NCBI RefSeq assembly: GCF_003369835.1 | Contig: NZ_QPMJ01000001.1 | Coordinates: forward strand, 992,001-1,056,000 | Reading direction: 5' to 3' | DNA: 64,000 bases | Origin: Halorussus rarus | Lineage (GTDB): Archaea > Halobacteriota > Halobacteria > Halobacteriales > Haladaptataceae | Part shown: piece by piece, positions 43,219 through 63,545 of the stretch | Layout of the letters: each line of letters begins with the position of its first letter | Position numbering within the stretch: position 1 is the stretch's first letter | Made by a program: the position numbers and the translations under genes | Notes under the pieces: model-generated | What the model saw: the letters and a program-made list of their open reading frames with translations, nothing else | Database searches by the model: none | What the model was told of the DNA's origin: nothing

Positions 43219-43293
43219 GCTCCGTTGGTGTAGTCCGGCCAATCATCTTGCCCTCTCACGGCAAGGACCAGGGTTCGAATCCCTGACGGAGCA
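43219..43293 (+). tRNA. tRNA-Glu (anticodon CTC)
   Basis: A full cloverleaf can be drawn: acceptor stem GCTCCGT/ACGGAGC, anticodon stem TTGCC/GGCAA with loop CTCTCAC (anticodon CTC), T-arm CAGGG-TTCGAAT-CCCTG, discriminator base A. No intron and no encoded CCA. It reads GAG codons, which are frequent in this genome. It is followed at once by phage-type repeats and an integrase, so it is also the integration target. Confidence 0.95.
43266..43293 (+). other. Probable attL core (tRNA 3' half)
   Basis: The T-arm and acceptor 3' strand of the tRNA gene (28 nt) are the usual crossover core for archaeal tyrosine integrases. Exact limits cannot be set without the right-hand copy. Confidence 0.5.
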
Positions 43294-43359
43294 CTTCCAT
43301 CCTTCTCCCGTCATGCAGTTTTCGTCCGTGAACAATGGTGAAACCAACGCATGTTCACG

Positions 43360-43489
43360 GGCAATTACCTTCGATGGACCGGTCGAACCTGCCGCCATCT
43401 TGCGATTAGCCAAATAGCGGCGGCAATTACCTTCGATGTACTGAACCCCGCGCCTTCTGGCGATTGGGTGAAATCGACGGGCAAGCACC
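43360..43489 (+). repeat. Direct repeats between attL and integrase
   Basis: GGCAATTACCTTCGATG occurs twice, at 43360-43376 and 43422-43438, with a degenerate third copy (GGCAAGCACC) at 43480-43489; spacing is 62 and 58 nt. The sequence before copies two and three is also similar (CGCC.TCT.GCGATT). They lie just left of the integrase start and may be arm-type binding sites for the integrase or its accessory factor. Confidence 0.65.
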
Positions 43490-43514
43490 TGGGTTCCCCG
43501 CGAGGTGGCAGGCA

Positions 43515-44639
43515 ATGAAGAACGCCGACGAGGCAACGACCCCTCTAGAGGGAATCACGGTCGTCCCCGAACCCTCTGCAGAACTCCTCAACGAACGCCA
43601 ACAGATCGACTACCGCAACCAGCGCGAGCAGTGCCTCGAATGGCTGCTCGTATTCGGAAAAGACCCCAAGAAAGCCGAGGGTTACGCACGCACTACCGTC
43701 AAGAACCGCGCCCACCGAATGGACCAGTTCTACCGATGGGTGTGGGACCGCGACGGATACACGACGACCGTCACGCACGACCACGCCGACGCATACCTGA
43801 GATGGCTCGCCAAGCAGGACCACAGCAACGCCCACAAGGACAACTGCCGGAAGGCGCTACTGATGCTGTACAAGTGGCGCGAGCACGAACACGGGTTAGA
43901 CGAGTGGGACCCGGAGCTGTCCTTCAGTACCGGTCACAAGACGACTACGCCGCGCGACTACCTGACCCGCGAGGAACGCGGCCAGATTCGAGAAGCCGCG
44001 CTCGAATACGGAAGCGTCCCGTCGTACAAGGGCCTCGATTCCCAGGAGCGCGACCGGTGGAAGGCCTACCTCGCCCAGCGCTTCGAGAAACCGAAATCCG
44101 AAGTGACGCCGGAAGACTGGGACGAGGCGAACGGCTGGAAGATTCCGAGTCTCGTCTCGGTGAGTCTCGACGCAGGACTGCGTCCAATCGAAGTCGAGCG
44201 TGCCGTGACGGGCTGGGTCGATATCGAGAACGCCGTGTTGCGTATCCCGAAGGAGCAGTCCTCGAAGAACACCGGCCACTGGATCGTGGGTCTTCAGGAC
44301 CGGACGGCCGAGACGCTCGACCGATGGCTTGAGCAGCGTGAGAACGACCCGACGTACGACGATACCGACAAGCTCTGGCTGACCCGGTTCAGCAACACCT
44401 ACGGGTCAGCCTCACTGCGAAAGGTCCTCCGCCGGCTCTGCGATCAGGCGGACATCCCATACGAAAACCGACAAATGAGTTGGTACTCAATACGTCACTC
44501 TACTGGTACTTACATGACCAGAGAGGAAGATCTCGCCGCAGCCCAAGCTCAACTCCGGCACAAGAGTCCAGAGACGACGATGAAGTACGACCAAGCGCCC
44601 GTGGAGGATCGTCAGGACGCATTAGACCGGATGGGGTGA
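43515..44639 (+). CDS. int: Tyrosine recombinase/integrase
   Basis: A 374-residue phage-type integrase. The N-terminal SAM-like core-binding domain covers about 30-140. Catalytic residues can be placed: Arg223 in GLRPIE, Arg327-His328 in SIRHSTGT, the QLRHKSPETT segment, and nucleophile Tyr358 in TMKYDQ. The start MKNADEATT at 43515 is preferred to a TTG at 43464, which lies within the direct-repeat region. It should recombine the tRNA-Glu att site. It is convergent with a second integrase-like gene 31 nt away. Confidence 0.92.
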   Translation: MKNADEATTPLEGITVVPEPSAELLNERQQIDYRNQREQCLEWLLVFGKDPKKAEGYARTTVKNRAHRMDQFYRWVWDRDGYTTTVTHDHADAYLRWLAKQDHSNAHKDNCRKALLMLYKWREHEHGLDEWDPELSFSTGHKTTTPRDYLTREERGQIREAALEYGSVPSYKGLDSQERDRWKAYLAQRFEKPKSEVTPEDWDEANGWKIPSLVSVSLDAGLRPIEVERAVTGWVDIENAVLRIPKEQSSKNTGHWIVGLQDRTAETLDRWLEQRENDPTYDDTDKLWLTRFSNTYGSASLRKVLRRLCDQADIPYENRQMSWYSIRHSTGTYMTREEDLAAAQAQLRHKSPETTMKYDQAPVEDRQDALDRMG

Positions 44640-47105: not shown

Positions 47106-47127
47106 GTGTTAGGTGAATGCCTCCTTT

Positions 47128-49404
47128 ATGAACGAACTGAGAGCGAATATCTCGTTCGACAGGTTCGCGGATATGCCGGAGTTCTACGGATCGGGTGCTG
47201 CGAAGTACCGCCTGGCGATGGTGAAAGAACGAGACGACTTCCTCGACCTGTTCGAAGGCGCTCGTCACGTGGATGCGGTGACGTACGCGGAGACGCCCGA
47301 GCTGATGGTGAAGATGCTGACCGAGTACGACATCGGGTCGCTGGACGTACTCATCGGGAACGCCGAGGACTACGCAGACCAAGTGAGCGAAGTCTCGACG
47401 GCGAGGTCTCTCGTCCGACTTCGGCAAGACGACCGGCTTACCGTTCGACTGAAGAATCGGAAGACCGTCCACTCGAAGATCTACCGGATCGTCATGCCGG
47501 ACGACACGGTGAAGCTCGTACAGGGGTCGGCGAACCTCTCGCGGAACTCGTGGGAGTACCACACGAACCAGATCTCGGTCTTCACGACTGAGGTCGGGAC
47601 TGAGCTGGACGAGGAGTTCGAGCGGTTTATCGACGAGTACCGCGAGGGGTACAGCGACCAGACGCTCCTTGAGGGGCTCGTTGAAGCGCTGGAGGAGGCC
47701 GATTCGCCGGAGGAGCGGGAGAACCGCATCGAGTACTGGGTCGGTGCGGGCGACCTCGACGTCAGTGATACGGCCGCCCTGAACCAGGATGCCGTCGAGG
47801 ATCTGAAAGACGTCGCCGACCAGGTCACCGCCGTCGTCGACGATCCCGATGAGGCCGACGAGACGGTCGCGTTCGTCGAAGAACCCGAGAACGCAGACCG
47901 CAGCGTCGTCGAACCAGACACTTCGACAGGTGAGGAAGAGTCCGACGAGGATGTGGACAGTGACCAGTCGCCGGATGTCGGGCTCGTGGAGTCGGACCAC
48001 GAAACGGAGTTGACGGATACGCTTGACCGGCCGCGGGTTCGCGCACCCGACGAGAAGATTCGGATGGGAACTAGCAAGGTGGACAAGGATACCGCGGACG
48101 AGTTCGGAGCCGGTCTCCGTGACCGCGGTGCGACCGTCGAAGACCACAGCATCACCGCGCCGCTGAGCGCGTACAACAATCAGGTCAAAGAATCGACGGC
48201 CATCCCGACGATGTCGGTCCTTCCGGAGGCCGAGCAGGTCGTGATCGGCGAGGACGACGAGATGATTCTCGTCGCCACCGACGAGCCGACGCCCGAAGTC
48301 CTGGATCACTGCCTCGAAACCATCGAGGACTACATCGAGACCGTCGAGAACCACGGCCACACGCAGTCCGAGACCGCAGTAATGGCGCAGATGTACGAGG
48401 CGTTCCTCTACGGGTTCTGGGCTCCGTTCGCCAACCAGTACGCTGAAGCCCTCTCGTCACCGTCGCGGACGCTGGATAACGTCCTCCAGCATCTCTACAT
48501 CGAAGGAAAGAGCGACGCAGGGAAGGACAAGCTCACCGAGTACATTCTTCGACTCGTCTCCGACAACACAGTCATCTCCGGTGTCGACGCGGACGAGGTC
48601 GGCGTAAAGGAGGTCCGTGGCGTCCGCGAGTGGGACACGTGCTTCCCGTACGCAATCATCGACGCGGAGAAAGAGAAGATCCAGCGGTGGAGCCCGATTC
48701 GGAACTACTGGGGCGACTGGACGCCGACCAGCGTCGATCAGCCGTGCCTCATCTTCACGACGAACGACGCGCTTCCGAAATCTGAGTTCCGGAACCGGAT
48801 GAAAATCCTGAGCATGGATGTCTCCTTCCCCTCCAACCCGGAAGACCCAGGCTTCCGCGAAGCGCAAGAAGACCTTTCGGACGTGTTAGAACGGCAGAAC
48901 CCGATCTTCAGTTACGTGGCCCGCCGGATGCTCACCGAGCAACCGTGGACTGACGGGAACGGTACTATCGAAGACGTCCGCCGCATTGTCCGCGAATTCT
49001 ACGACGAAGCGGGTCGAGAGCAACCCGAGTACTTCCCCGCTGACGAGCCGGCCGAAAAAACGTATGATACGGGTCGGTTGAAATGGCAGCGGGATATCCA
49101 AGGCGGCCGTGTCACGTTCGAGCCGGAGCCGAATGCCATCACAGCTGACTTCGACCGCGAAGAGTATGAGGTGTACGACTACGAGAAGCGCCTCCCCAAA
49201 CGATTCATGTCCGAGAAATCGTCCACAAGCGTCTATATCGGCGCACCAGAGGAATTCGCTGAGTGGATCGGGTACTCGGTTGACGAGCTACTGAATGGTG
49301 CTACTAAGACAGAATCTGATACCACCCAGCAAAATAGCGGCTCGGAAGACAACGTGGATGATAGCGAATCGACTGGCTTCTTCGCACGATTGCTTGGCAG
49401 CTGA
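47128..49404 (+). CDS. PLD-nuclease / P-loop ATPase fusion (copy 1)
   Basis: A 758-residue protein. Residues about 25-175 form a phospholipase-D-type nuclease module with one HxK motif: His115, Lys117 (VHSKIYR) and Asn136 in GSANLS. One HKN motif means a dimer would make the active site. An acidic linker covers about 210-310. The C-terminal ATPase has Walker A GKSDAGKD (Gly460, Lys466), then YAIIDAEKEKI and IFTTNDALPKSEFRNRMK, resembling SF3/AAA+ motif C and an arginine finger. The same architecture occurs in the minus-strand operon gene at 58695-60812. Confidence 0.85.
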   Translation: MNELRANISFDRFADMPEFYGSGAAKYRLAMVKERDDFLDLFEGARHVDAVTYAETPELMVKMLTEYDIGSLDVLIGNAEDYADQVSEVSTARSLVRLRQDDRLTVRLKNRKTVHSKIYRIVMPDDTVKLVQGSANLSRNSWEYHTNQISVFTTEVGTELDEEFERFIDEYREGYSDQTLLEGLVEALEEADSPEERENRIEYWVGAGDLDVSDTAALNQDAVEDLKDVADQVTAVVDDPDEADETVAFVEEPENADRSVVEPDTSTGEEESDEDVDSDQSPDVGLVESDHETELTDTLDRPRVRAPDEKIRMGTSKVDKDTADEFGAGLRDRGATVEDHSITAPLSAYNNQVKESTAIPTMSVLPEAEQVVIGEDDEMILVATDEPTPEVLDHCLETIEDYIETVENHGHTQSETAVMAQMYEAFLYGFWAPFANQYAEALSSPSRTLDNVLQHLYIEGKSDAGKDKLTEYILRLVSDNTVISGVDADEVGVKEVRGVREWDTCFPYAIIDAEKEKIQRWSPIRNYWGDWTPTSVDQPCLIFTTNDALPKSEFRNRMKILSMDVSFPSNPEDPGFREAQEDLSDVLERQNPIFSYVARRMLTEQPWTDGNGTIEDVRRIVREFYDEAGREQPEYFPADEPAEKTYDTGRLKWQRDIQGGRVTFEPEPNAITADFDREEYEVYDYEKRLPKRFMSEKSSTSVYIGAPEEFAEWIGYSVDELLNGATKTESDTTQQNSGSEDNVDDSESTGFFARLLGS

Positions 49405-49470: not shown

Positions 49471-51741
49471 TCAGAGTTCTTGCTGGAGGATTACATGGAT
49501 ACGGTCTAGTACCGGGTTGCAGTTGCTGTTATTTCGTGCTGTTTGCCGCAATTCGTCGAACAACTCAGCCAGCGTATTCACGGTCTCATCCCTCATCTCT
49601 GGTGGATTAATCACTGGAACCTGTTCCAATTGGTTCGGTTCGATTTTATCGAGGCCGCCATCCCGCGTTTGCTTGTACTTACGAACAACCTCGTCGAAGA
49701 TGTCGCTATTGAGGTACGCTAGTAACGCTTTCAGTTCGGTCTCTGAAAGCGTGATGTCGTAGAAGCCGTAGCAAGCGTTTGTATTCCGCACATCTGTTTC
49801 GTTCAAGATGAACCTGAACTGATCTCGGCTCGCATTTTGAACGAGGACGCGAGTTGGATCTTTTCGTCGAGGACGGTACCAGTACGGACGGTTCGAGAAC
49901 GTGCTCGTGTCATTAAGCCCATATTCAATTACACCGTCTCGAAGGTACTCTCGCACGGCCGAGTACCCGTTCTCGATATCGGATCGCTCGGGCGCTTCTC
50001 TATTTGCCCCCTTCGAGAACTGGTGTTTGAAGTCCGCGATCGTATTCGGGACTCGGGGTATTTGATCAGGATCCAGAAGCCAGACGTCTTTCCCGTTCGC
50101 GCGTGCTTCTTGCCAGTTGAACTCTTGGTAGTCGTATCCGTCTATCTGACTCGGCTTACGGACGATCCGTGACAGGTGGCGTTCGTCAAGGTCGTTCTCC
50201 TCAACCTCCTGTTTTGACAAGCAGAAGAGATTGACTTCGCCTGTGGTTGGACCACGGTGGATGGTGAGGAACTTCCCAAGTTGTGGGAGGTGGCTCGTGT
50301 CGATCTCGACGGGGTCGAACAGTACCTGCCAGTTCTTCTTGGGGCGAAGGTCCGTCTGTGGAACACGATTGATGAAGCCCCAGTCAGTTGAACCCGGCTC
50401 ACCGTTTTCGACTGCCTCACGGATCATCTTCGACTCGACTTTCTCGTCGACACGAATGAAGTGCGTCTCGCCAGCTGTCTCACCCTCGGGTTTCGCTTCT
50501 AAGAACGTGAGCAGAGCAGTCGTGTCGGCATTGTCGAAGACACAGTAGCTCTCCGGGTTGAATTGTACGAACGCTTTGATTGTGTAGTTGTCGAGGAGGA
50601 ACTGCTTTAGCGACTCCCCGTATCGATTGCTGAGGAAGCTTTGCGGGGTGATGAAGGCTGCACGATCACCTGGCGACAGGAAGGCACGTGAATGGTAAAT
50701 AAAGTAGGCATGGAGGGGTGATCGAGCGCTTATTTCGATCCCTGTAGCCTCCTCCAGTTGCGTGTTAGTCCGTTCTTTGTACCAGTCCTGGAGTGCATCC
50801 CCCTTCGTGTACGGCGGGTTACAGACGATTGCATCAACATCCTGTTGTAGATCCGCAGGTCGGAGATTGAGAAAATCAGTTTCATTCAACTCATGCGGTT
50901 GCCCGGACAAGGTCAGCGCAGTGCTTCCCATGAGGAGTGCGAGTTGGCTCCGGTCGATCCCGTTAATGCGCGCTGGATCGGTACTCAGACGCCAGTCCGG
51001 GTGAAATGGACTAGACAGGACGCCGGCTCCCATCCCAGGATCCATGACGGTATCATCGCTTTCCCCTGCCCATGACTGCATTAACTGACCAATGTCAGGT
51101 GGTGTCCTGAACTGGCTGAGCACCTGTCGGCATTCCTTCGGAGTTACTGCCTCGTAGAGTCGTCCGATGTCTTCCGCGGGTTGCGTGGACGCAAGCAACC
51201 GATCTCGATTCTCGTCGATGACCTCCATCTCCGATTCATCGACATGGAGAAGGAAATAATCCAACACGCACTCTCCGAAACCTGGATTCGCCCCAACCTC
51301 TGCAACACTTTGAATTATCTCCCAAGTATCGGCAGGGAACTCCGGCAACTCACCACGTCGATGATGCCACTCATACACGGTGGCCTTTAGCAACCGGGTC
51401 AAGACGGCCTGGCGGGCGACGAGGCGTCTCCTAGCACTGGTAGTCGCATCATTCAACCCATGAGACAGACACCATGTATCGACTCGCCCGTGGAGTGAGT
51501 CTGGGATCTCAGCGAAGGCTGGTGCGAGTCGATCAGCTACCGTTGTGATGATCTCGGCGAGGCGGTCGGTGTCAACTGACCGGCTGAACTCGGGTATCCC
51601 GTGATCCTTATCTACCCACTGATGATCAGGCGCAGCAGGAGTTATCGGTGATATATCTGCCATTTCCGCCTTACTCAGGGCCAATTCCAGATCTACTGGA
51701 GTGTCTGTACGGCAGCGTCGAAGGTTCGTTTCATCTAACAT
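49471..51741 (-). CDS. N6-adenine-type DNA methyltransferase
   Basis: A 756-residue protein of the Eco57I/TaqI/HsdM-like gamma methyltransferase group. Motif I is DPGMGAGVL (Asp234) and motif IV NPPY at 308-311, with FRTPPDIGQLM just before motif I and ARSPLHAYFIYHSRAFL after motif IV. The C-terminal half (about 430-730) looks like a target-recognition region. No nuclease domain is evident, so it could be a solitary methylase or the modification arm of the island. The N-terminal 200 residues are helical and unassigned. Confidence 0.82.
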   Translation of the reverse strand: MLDETNLRRCRTDTPVDLELALSKAEMADISPITPAAPDHQWVDKDHGIPEFSRSVDTDRLAEIITTVADRLAPAFAEIPDSLHGRVDTWCLSHGLNDATTSARRRLVARQAVLTRLLKATVYEWHHRRGELPEFPADTWEIIQSVAEVGANPGFGECVLDYFLLHVDESEMEVIDENRDRLLASTQPAEDIGRLYEAVTPKECRQVLSQFRTPPDIGQLMQSWAGESDDTVMDPGMGAGVLSSPFHPDWRLSTDPARINGIDRSQLALLMGSTALTLSGQPHELNETDFLNLRPADLQQDVDAIVCNPPYTKGDALQDWYKERTNTQLEEATGIEISARSPLHAYFIYHSRAFLSPGDRAAFITPQSFLSNRYGESLKQFLLDNYTIKAFVQFNPESYCVFDNADTTALLTFLEAKPEGETAGETHFIRVDEKVESKMIREAVENGEPGSTDWGFINRVPQTDLRPKKNWQVLFDPVEIDTSHLPQLGKFLTIHRGPTTGEVNLFCLSKQEVEENDLDERHLSRIVRKPSQIDGYDYQEFNWQEARANGKDVWLLDPDQIPRVPNTIADFKHQFSKGANREAPERSDIENGYSAVREYLRDGVIEYGLNDTSTFSNRPYWYRPRRKDPTRVLVQNASRDQFRFILNETDVRNTNACYGFYDITLSETELKALLAYLNSDIFDEVVRKYKQTRDGGLDKIEPNQLEQVPVINPPEMRDETVNTLAELFDELRQTARNNSNCNPVLDRIHVILQQEL

Positions 51742-60875: not shown

Positions 60876-63545
60876 TCAGATGTACGGGACACCGCGGATG
60901 ACGCTGCCCTTGGTGAGGTAGCCCTTCATGGCGAAGTCGGCGCACTTGTCGGCGTAGTACGTGGTGATGGGAAGCCGGGTGGACCGGCTTAGCGACCCGA
61001 CGTGCGCTTCAGACAGCCAGTAGGTCTGCTCCGCGAGCGTATCGAGGTCTGTCGATCCGTGGCGTTTCACGATCTGCAGCGGTCGCGGCGTGCCTGGACT
61101 GCCCTCCTTCCCACCGGTCGTGGTCAGGTAGGAGTGGTCGCCGTTGTGGACGTGGAATGCGATGCCTTTGTCTGCGATATCGAACCGTGATTTCGATTCG
61201 TCGTACTCGGCGATGCGGGGGTTCCCGGATTTCCGGATCTCGACGAGGTCGAACCGCTGGATGAGATCGCGGGCTTTGTCGAGACGGTTGATGAGGCTCT
61301 CGACGTCGAGGTAGAACTTCCCGTCACGATGGATGACCACGTGCCGCGGCGGTCGGCCTTCCTCTTCGGCAAAGATTTCCAGGACGTGCTTGATGACGTT
61401 CGCTACGTCGTCCTCGTCGAACGTCTCGCCAGCCTGCTTCGTGACGGCCTCAGACGCGAGGATGGTTCCGTCGGCCATGATGACGTTCGCGGCCGCGCCG
61501 AGGTGTTGCTTGGTCGCGTGGTCGTACGTCACGTCGAGACCGACGAACGCGTCAACGCCCCCGGGAACGTCGTCGATACGCCACGGCACGCCGCCCGCTT
61601 TACCGATAAGCGACGAGCAGATGTTCCCGCGGTAGTTGTCGTTACCGAGGTTGTCGATGGAGATCATCTGACTCGGCACGCCGAGTTGTCCGAGTCGGCG
61701 TTTAAATTCCGGATAGGGATCGTCGTACTCCGCTTCCGCCGCGTCGTCTGCATCTGGGACGACGATCAGCGCCGCATCGTAGTCACTCGCTTTCTGCGCG
61801 TGTTGGGAGTAGTGGAACTCCGAGCCGAGTTCGTAGGTCTCCTGATCGAACGCCGTTGGACCCGCATCGTAGTCCGCGAGCTTGTTGAGCAGCGTGAGCA
61901 CGTACGGCCGTGCGTCGCTCTCCTCATCTTCCGGGTACAGCGCGATGATGTCGAACGACTCAGGAGCCTTGTACACGCCGTATTCCTTCCGCTCCAGCCC
62001 GCCAGCCCCGTAGTACCCCGTATTGCCACCTCCGAACCGTAGGTTCGGGGTGTTCGGTGTCTTGTGCTCCCGGTACCCGGCGTTCGTGGGTTGGGGGACG
62101 GGGTCGAAGCTGAAGTACGGCGTCGGACCGAGCAAATCCACGAACGACGTGACGACGTTGAACCGTTCCTCGGGTTTCATCCGGCTTTCGTTGTGGATGA
62201 CGTCCAGGAACGTGTCATCGACACGGCCCAACTGCTCGAACGTCGGGATGACCTTACAGTACTCCAAGAGCTGCGGGAAGATCGAATCATCGCCGCTCCC
62301 GTACTGCAGATCAGCGATGATTGGGTCACCGGCCCGCATCGAGTTGATGACGTCCTGCTCGACGTGCTTCTCGTGGTACTCCGACATCGGGACTCCCGGC
62401 CCGTCCAGCACATCATCGTAGTCCATATCAATGACCTCCTTGACCGTTGCCGTGCGAGCACTGTCGTAGAGGTCAGTGTCGTGCTCGACGGTCACCTCGG
62501 CGATGTCGTGTCCACGCTCAACCCACTCGGCAGCGGAGAACGTCGATTCCAAGTGGTACGCGACGTTCACGCCACAAATCACGGTCCCGTCAGCATCAAC
62601 ACGAATCCGGCACTTATACTTCCGATATGCTTCGAACAAGCCGCTGTTTGCGGTTCGCTGCGGGGTAGGCTCGATGATCGAATCGATTCCCGACACCTCG
62701 AAGCGACCAGCAACAGCACGCTTCACGTCCTGCTTGACGAACTCTTGGAGCGGTCCGTCGTCCGTGTACGAGCGCGCCTCCAGGGTCGTTTCTCCTTGGT
62801 GGATGGGTTCGATGGTGTACCCGTGGATCGAGATCGTACTGTGGAGCTTCTCAGTCGCGTAGATACGCCGCCGGGACGCATCAGCTGTCGTAACTGGGCT
62901 GTTACTCCGGGACTGGTAGTAGTTCGCTGCTTTCGCCGTGAACCCCTCGATCCCGTTCGTGAAGTCATCCGGGTCGAGCCCGCCGCTTCCGGTTGCGCGG
63001 AGTTCATATTCGTGGACGGTTAGTTCCGGCAGGTCCCCGAGCTCGAACTGTAGCAGGTAGTTCCCGTCCGACAACGGCTGTTGGTGTAACAGTTCACCGC
63101 CACCATCTGCCGTCGGTCGTGGCTCGCTCGTCACTTCACTCCCCCGAACGAACTCCGACTCATCGCTTGAATCTGCCTCCGTTGAAGATTCGCCAGCGTC
63201 ACTTTCGGAGGACTGCGCAGCCGATGTGTTCTCTGCCCCGCTGCTCTCGGCTTCGGCAGGTGGCTCGTCAAGCGGCGTGACGATCAGATCATACCCCGGG
63301 TTGAGTTGCATCTCACCGCGGTATTCGTTCCCGACTACGTTCTCCAGAACGTACCAGCGCCCGACCTCCCACTCGAAATCCGCAATCTCGTTATTGTGGA
63401 ACACGGTCAGTTCCACTGGCGTCCCTTCGACATCCGCCAACTGAACTTTCCGAGCGATGGCGTCGTGGTCCCACTCGTCAGTCCCTGTGACGCGCAGTGA
63501 GATATCGACCTGTTCCCCATCCTCGATGTCATCCTTCACTGCCAT
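60876..63545 (-). CDS. ago: Long Argonaute with N-terminal OB-fold (NgAgo-like)
   Basis: An 889-residue prokaryotic Argonaute. Residues about 8-95 look like an OB-fold/RPA-type domain (VDISLRVTGTDEWDHDAIAR...RWYVLENV), followed by a Ser/Asp/Glu linker (95-150), as in halophilic Argonautes such as NgAgo. N, PAZ-like and MID regions follow (SQMISIDNLGND near 630). The PIWI tetrad can be placed: Asp671 (FVGLDVTYD), Glu707 (AGETFDED), Asp741 (IHRDGKFY) and Asp866 (TTYYADKC). An intact tetrad suggests guide-directed cleavage. First gene of the operon with the PLD-ATPase and AddAB-like genes. Confidence 0.93.
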   Translation of the reverse strand: MAVKDDIEDGEQVDISLRVTGTDEWDHDAIARKVQLADVEGTPVELTVFHNNEIADFEWEVGRWYVLENVVGNEYRGEMQLNPGYDLIVTPLDEPPAEAESSGAENTSAAQSSESDAGESSTEADSSDESEFVRGSEVTSEPRPTADGGGELLHQQPLSDGNYLLQFELGDLPELTVHEYELRATGSGGLDPDDFTNGIEGFTAKAANYYQSRSNSPVTTADASRRRIYATEKLHSTISIHGYTIEPIHQGETTLEARSYTDDGPLQEFVKQDVKRAVAGRFEVSGIDSIIEPTPQRTANSGLFEAYRKYKCRIRVDADGTVICGVNVAYHLESTFSAAEWVERGHDIAEVTVEHDTDLYDSARTATVKEVIDMDYDDVLDGPGVPMSEYHEKHVEQDVINSMRAGDPIIADLQYGSGDDSIFPQLLEYCKVIPTFEQLGRVDDTFLDVIHNESRMKPEERFNVVTSFVDLLGPTPYFSFDPVPQPTNAGYREHKTPNTPNLRFGGGNTGYYGAGGLERKEYGVYKAPESFDIIALYPEDEESDARPYVLTLLNKLADYDAGPTAFDQETYELGSEFHYSQHAQKASDYDAALIVVPDADDAAEAEYDDPYPEFKRRLGQLGVPSQMISIDNLGNDNYRGNICSSLIGKAGGVPWRIDDVPGGVDAFVGLDVTYDHATKQHLGAAANVIMADGTILASEAVTKQAGETFDEDDVANVIKHVLEIFAEEEGRPPRHVVIHRDGKFYLDVESLINRLDKARDLIQRFDLVEIRKSGNPRIAEYDESKSRFDIADKGIAFHVHNGDHSYLTTTGGKEGSPGTPRPLQIVKRHGSTDLDTLAEQTYWLSEAHVGSLSRSTRLPITTYYADKCADFAMKGYLTKGSVIRGVPYI

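Follow-up and report, generated by a model that had tools for sequence, protein, structure and literature searches.

How active prokaryotic Argonautes come by their guides, and how they gain access to double-stranded DNA, is an open question in the field. The window analysed here, a stretch of 64,000 nucleotides of the haloarchaeon Halorussus rarus, holds an apparently intact Argonaute gene beside AddAB-like genes of its own (an AddB-like, a PD-(D/E)XK nuclease and an AddA-like gene, hereafter the trio). This makes the question of guides and access testable within one native operon of tractable haloarchaea. Does the Argonaute work together with the helicase-nuclease next to it?

The Argonaute ORF, of 889 aa, was confirmed at both ends, with its ATG at 63545 and its stop at 60876, and the start is supported by orthologues with the same first methionine. 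No other PIWI gene was found in the 4.37-Mb genome of H. rarus. Piwi was the sole domain above the Pfam cut-off (2e-20), PADLOC called the gene a pAgo, and the top sequence matches in the PDB were CpAgo and CbAgo (4e-40). The residues Asp671, Glu707, Asp741 and Asp866, in the contexts FVGLDVT, QAGETFD, IHRDG and YYADK, respectively, aligned with the D-E-D-D of CpAgo in a phmmer comparison, and a solved CpAgo mutant (u165946) carries alanine at the position aligned to D741. All four columns were invariant in 21 haloarchaeal Argonautes of 33-95% identity, and also in 17 close homologues. An AlphaFold2 model of the whole protein, built with the 21-Argonaute alignment, reached a pLDDT of 78 and a pTM of 0.63, with an N-terminal domain made of strands only, and Foldseek matched the model to CbAgo over 799 columns (E 6e-46, TMt 0.71). 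Given this alignment and fold match, it is unlikely that the four acids fail to cluster in space. The predicted N-PAZ-MID-PIWI architecture and the complete DEDX tetrad place the protein among the long-A prokaryotic Argonautes and, judged by its sequence, it is of the intact DNA-cutting kind already known in salt-loving archaea.

In the MID domain, Y611, K615 and Q626 were invariant in the 21-sequence alignment; together with K649, which is missing from the NpAgo branch, they align with CpAgo. Such MID residues are associated with 5'-phosphorylated guides in long-A pAgos, and the conserved pocket formed by the four residues suggests guides of this type here. Among the 17 close homologues, dN/dS was 0.04 in PIWI, 0.07 in N-L2, 0.13 in MID, 0.17 in the OB domain and 0.28 in the linker. 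The Argonaute, including its OB domain, is maintained by selection, and the linker is fast-evolving.

Modelled alone, residues 1-97 gave a pLDDT of 92 and a pTM of 0.83 in AlphaFold2, with strands at 12-25, 31-37, 43-49, 64-75, 78-82 and 88-92. The nearest PDB folds were the OB domain of MM0293 (TM 0.81) and the Sulfolobus SSB (0.75), and further matches were Teb1, POT1, hSSB1 and RPA, which are OB-folds of the ssDNA type. Profile matches pointed to Teb1, MM0293 and SsoSSB, and NCBIfam matched the domain to replication factor A (E 5e-6); a Pfam search of the domain gave no significant match. Residues 1-97 are thus predicted to form an OB barrel of the RPA/SSB type. Two of the three stacking aromatics of SsoSSB have aromatic counterparts in the OB domain (F49 for W56, Y75 for F79), while the third, W75, corresponds to V71 and to R, K or N in relatives. 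The domain is acidic (21 D/E, 6 K/R). In the whole-protein model, residues 98-162 fell below a pLDDT of 50, and residues 93-150 contain 16 D/E versus 2 K/R.

The sequence-only reading had claimed the intact tetrad, the N-terminal OB-fold and the acidic linker. All three held up, the tetrad by alignment with CpAgo and CbAgo and by its invariance, the OB-fold by structure prediction and comparison with PDB folds, and the linker by its low pLDDT and charge count. It had also stated that the OB-fold is known in halophilic Argonautes; NgAgo and NpAgo do possess it. An N-terminal OB-fold was already listed in eight long pAgos in 2018 (Ryazansky et al., PMC6299218), and the 'RepA' N-terminal domain of NgAgo was previously known (PMC10908814). 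The further proposal, that the OB-fold physically connects the Argonaute with the helicase, has lost ground: the domain occurs in NgAgo and NpAgo without AddAB-like genes, and about 20 trios are without an Argonaute. For the same reasons, the OB domain seems to be a general feature of haloarchaeal pAgos. It may still grip ssDNA exposed by a helicase. However, a domain that predates the trio or is independent of it is no evidence for coupling, and one that is common to Argonautes without AddAB-like genes should not be read as a helicase link.

Table 1. Positions of the features of the Argonaute operon and of one related protein (window coordinates, except where a locus is named).
Feature	Position	Strand	Basis
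Long-A Argonaute, 889 aa (OB, linker, N/L1/PAZ/L2, MID, PIWI)	60876..63545	-	ORF, Pfam, PADLOC pAgo, fold match
Predicted N-terminal OB-fold, RPA/SSB type, residues 1-97	63255..63545	-	AF2, PDB folds, NCBIfam, profiles
Predicted disordered Ser/Glu-rich acidic linker, residues 98-162	63060..63254	-	pLDDT <50, charge count, fast evolution
Predicted catalytic Asp671 codon	61533..61535	-	CpAgo alignment, invariance in 21 Argonautes
Predicted catalytic Glu707 (glutamate finger) codon	61425..61427	-	CpAgo alignment, invariance in 21 Argonautes
Predicted catalytic Asp741 codon	61323..61325	-	CpAgo alignment, invariance in 21 Argonautes
Predicted catalytic Asp866 codon	60948..60950	-	CpAgo alignment, invariance in 21 Argonautes
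PLD-family nuclease with C-terminal P-loop-like domain, 705 aa	58695..60812	-	Pfam PLDc_2, motif, identity to AgaP
Putative AddB/RecC-like subunit, no Walker A, 686 aa	56629..58689	-	Weak UvrD_C/ADDB_N, motif scan
Cas4/RecB-like PD-(D/E)XK nuclease, 300 aa	55730..56632	-	PDDEXK_1 7e-22
AddA/AdnB-like UvrD helicase with C-terminal RecB nuclease, 1150 aa	52281..55733	-	UvrD, PDDEXK_1, PDB
Start of divergent AAA_14/DUF4143 ATPase, 559 aa	63804..64000	+	L002 15804-17483; runs to genome C1:1057483
OB-fold with DnaQ/PolB-like 3'-5' exonuclease, 375 aa	L086:15289-16416	-	Between AddA-like and AgaP-like PLD genes

The five genes of the operon (Table 1) follow each other in the order Ago, PLD, AddB-like, PD-(D/E)XK and AddA-like, with junctions of 63, 5, -4 and -4 bp. 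The divergent ATPase gene starts 258 bp upstream of ago and is syntenic in most relatives. The PLD protein has a contiguous motif (HxK118/GSxN136, with about 15 residues from H118-x-K120 to G136), and a PDB profile search gave only a marginal match to an NgoVII-type endonuclease (E 0.1). Within the trio, sequence evidence firmly supports the predicted AddA-like protein (UvrD 8e-61, PDDEXK_1 3e-26, Walker A AGAGTGKT, PDB matches to PcrA and AdnB). The AddB-like protein gave weak UvrD_C and ADDB_N matches in its own sequence or in relatives (ADDB_N E 0.0016-0.017 in relatives) and only chance matches in a PDB search; its assignment is weak by sequence and draws partly on gene order. The putative AddB role would be split here over two genes, a helicase-like subunit and the Cas4/RecB-like nuclease with its four cysteines (C16, C281, C284, C290).

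The G+C content of the window drops from about 70% to 56% at a tRNA-Glu followed by a tyrosine-type integrase (43219-44639). This site is likely the edge of a genomic island that holds the Argonaute operon; a second copy of the tRNA-Glu 3' end, the att site expected at the far boundary, was not found within the 88 kb read. A second PLD protein of 763 aa (47113-49404, plus strand) faces the operon. It is 30% identical to the operon PLD, and its family, a haloarchaeal one, is widespread among many genomes. An Eco57I-type N6 DNA methylase with a TaqI-like specificity domain (49471-51741, minus strand) lies 539 bp after the AddA-like gene; in Halostella pelagica (L004) the corresponding neighbour is 90% identical, and most other relatives lack the gene.

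The Argonaute occurred at 81-93% identity in twelve loci of our genome collection. The divergent ATPase and the PLD gene were kept in 11 of the 12, with one PLD internally deleted, and the whole trio was visible in 10, one locus ending at a contig edge. An intact Argonaute of 81% identity without PLD, ATPase and AddAB-like genes was seen only once (L013:10001-12646). In 391 haloarchaeal genomes, the Argonaute clade comprised 16 loci, of which 14 had an intact Argonaute, one a truncated (G318) and one a broken one (G290). As these loci are spread over six families and 15 genera, with identities of 86-95%, the Argonaute moves horizontally, and a plasmid of Salinigranum marinum holds the complete operon set. 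A TmtA-like (Tmn defence) ATPase of 1669 aa (L110:6935-11944, minus strand) adjoins the operon on this plasmid. In a tree, the window Argonaute fell within a single clade of Ago-PLD-AddAB loci (support 85/86); its sister group consists of Argonautes without the trio, and NgAgo is distant.

The trio lay directly downstream in all 16 clade loci, in one of them with a contig break in between; the association had a Fisher p of 7e-19, a value that does not correct for relatedness. The operon link between Argonaute and trio is far beyond chance. Together with the tight spacing, this synteny supports the operon of Argonaute and AddAB-like genes that had been proposed from the sequence. The AddB-like protein occurred at a minimum of 76% identity in 36 of the 391 genomes, and about 20 near-identical trios (76-91% identity) carried no Argonaute; the trio therefore works without it. 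PLD remnants were present beside the AddB-like genes in three of these Ago-less trios (G037, G049, G346), and distant trios (32-39% identity) were common without an adjacent Argonaute. Hence, the trio persists without Argonaute, whereas the clade Argonaute almost never occurs without the trio. This asymmetry is compatible with an Argonaute that depends on a pre-existing helicase-nuclease, though it is no proof. Upstream of the Ago-less trios in L074, L075 and L076, a conserved protein of 1644-1645 aa is encoded on the opposite strand in place of the Ago-PLD unit.

Eleven loci had a trio of 57-63% identity and no Argonaute. Six of them (L079, L080, L082, L083, L085 and L086) encode an intact OB-fold protein with DnaQ/PolB-like exonuclease motifs, one more (L084) a truncated version, and the same six have an AgaP-like PLD with split motif and an ATPase that is 54-55% identical. 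The OB-exonuclease arrangement parallels that of OB and Argonaute. One reading, which we consider quite unlikely, is drawn from synteny: an OB-fold combined with an RNase H-fold nuclease would serve as an interchangeable subunit, for targeting or trimming, within a single modular AddAB-PLD-ATPase machine, in an Argonaute version in the window and a DnaQ/PolB-like exonuclease version in L079-L086. If true, haloarchaea would have built a self-contained Argonaute system that both produces and uses guides, with its own RecBCD-like partner.

The explanation that we favour, and to which we give an even chance, is that of a mobile anti-invader operon of the APAP kind (a long-A pAgo with a PLD protein) linked to a dedicated AddAB-like helicase-nuclease. 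The AddAB-like complex would open and shred invader DNA from its ends, supplying single strands and short fragments. The Argonaute would bind 5'-phosphorylated guides, its OB domain would keep ssDNA close to the guide or target, and the cuts made by PIWI in complementary strands would give the helicase-nuclease fresh ends. A second nuclease would be contributed by the PLD protein, and the divergent ATPase may regulate the operon. In its favour we counted the conserved tetrad, the constraint, which is strongest in PIWI and clear in the OB domain in comparison with the linker, the tight operon spacing, the trio downstream of all 16 clade loci, the horizontal movement and plasmid occurrence of the Argonaute, and the related pair NpAgo/AgaP, which protects from plasmids and from an ssDNA virus. 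The ssDNA-binding relatives of the OB domain and its two retained SsoSSB aromatics were counted likewise. Against it stand the Ago-less trios, the L013 Argonaute without trio and PLD, and the OB domain of NgAgo and NpAgo without the trio. RecBCD of E. coli shapes the guides of heterologous pAgos, a precedent in favour, yet guide biogenesis does not depend on it (PMC10269773); this dispensability and the weak AddB assignment count against the explanation as well.

Alternatively, the trio might be an independent repair or defence module, with the Ago-PLD(-ATPase) unit merely inserted upstream and co-spreading, so that there is no coupling and the OB domain acts within the Argonaute. We regard this as possible but not probable. 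The near-identical and distant trios without Argonaute agree with it, and so does the decay of Ago-PLD with retention of the trio that the PLD remnants indicate. However, hitch-hiking would predict more trio-less Argonautes than the single one seen, and all 16 sampled clade Argonautes adjoin the trio, with 5-bp and overlapping junctions.

It is unlikely that the ligand of the OB domain is guide RNA, the N domain or a partner protein and that the domain tunes guide loading rather than coupling to the helicase, as ssDNA binders are its closest matches by fold and by profile. DNA interference by NgAgo was reported to depend on RNAs (PMC9040764), which would suit such a role. The non-aromatic residue at the position of SsoSSB W75 points in the same direction. 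The acidity of the domain does so too, but is also found in haloarchaeal RPAs, which are acidic because the proteins of salt-in organisms are acidic. Recombination or the completion of replication, instead of defence, are functions that have been proposed for TtAgo, SeAgo and LrAgo, and the processing of breaks by AddAB enzymes would fit them. Gene editing is enhanced by NpAgo on its own, an effect put down to recombination in the original study (PMC11442185). We nevertheless consider such a function very unlikely for the window operon, in view of its patchy presence (16 of the 391 genomes) and horizontal spread, its location on an island and a plasmid with defence-type neighbours, and the immunity conferred by the related NpAgo.

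Among known systems, the operon invites comparison with the APAP systems, haloarchaeal DEDX-intact pAgos paired with PLD proteins that were tested in 2024 (PMC11442185). NpAgo/AgaP provided immunity against plasmids via AgaP and against an ssDNA virus via the pAgo tetrad, and Cheng et al. had already pointed to helicase genes in the vicinity of some ago-agaP operons (PMC11442185). With the residue numbering of Cheng et al. (PMC11442185), the PLD of G091 C2 (L097) carries every AgaP residue (H105, K107, E112, G119, S120, D122, G157, S158, N160), and this locus is therefore the tested Natrinema pellirubrum APAP system. The window operon resembles it in having a long-A pAgo with intact DEDX and OB-fold, a PLD gene just downstream and a divergent AAA ATPase upstream (63% identical); APAP ago and PLD genes lie 31-64 bp apart, a range that includes the 63-bp gap in the window. 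In contrast, NpAgo and AgaP are only 35% and 34% identical to the window Argonaute and PLD, and the NpAgo locus lacks the trio. Moreover, the hallmark of AgaP, an HxK about 50 residues from GSxN, is absent from the contiguous motif of the window PLD. In view of the 34% identity and different motif spacing, we rejected the window PLD as an AgaP orthologue. In G318 (L091) and G290 (L060), the PLD is intact (94-95% identical) beside the truncated or broken Argonaute. With AgaP-like toxicity in the absence of Argonaute, it should not have survived there; perhaps the PLD of these genomes is unlike AgaP, or perhaps Argonaute was lost recently.

The Argonaute of G052 (887 aa, tetrad D663, E704, D738 and D863) was taken as NgAgo, because the mutations of catalytic residues of NgAgo in PMC9040764 were made at D663 and D738. 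It shares with the window Argonaute the domain order, including a homologous N-terminal OB ('RepA') domain, and the D-E-D-D tetrad. In contrast, the two proteins are 25% identical and sit on separate branches, and NgAgo has neither PLD nor AddAB-like genes nearby. The earlier label 'NgAgo-like' was therefore rejected in its strict sense; NpAgo is nearer. CbAgo and CpAgo are the closest solved structures over MID-PIWI and over the full length and have the same tetrad, but they possess neither an OB domain nor operon partners of the window kind, and CbAgo borrows the break repair of its host. The trio resembles AddAB, AdnAB and RecBCD in its fusion of UvrD helicase and RecB nuclease, its putative helicase-like partner without Walker A and its Cas4/RecB nuclease with Cys4, but differs in a putative AddB spread over two genes and in the marginal sequence similarity of the AddB-like subunit. 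PLD, Cas4 and UvrD-type genes near pAgos were already listed in 2018 (PMC6299218), and the long pAgos with N-terminal OB-fold of Ryazansky et al. (PMC6299218) are alike in this domain, but the five-gene operon was not defined there, and we found no paper defining it in the open-licence literature. The Argonaute protein itself is not new; the five-gene operon is the less familiar part.
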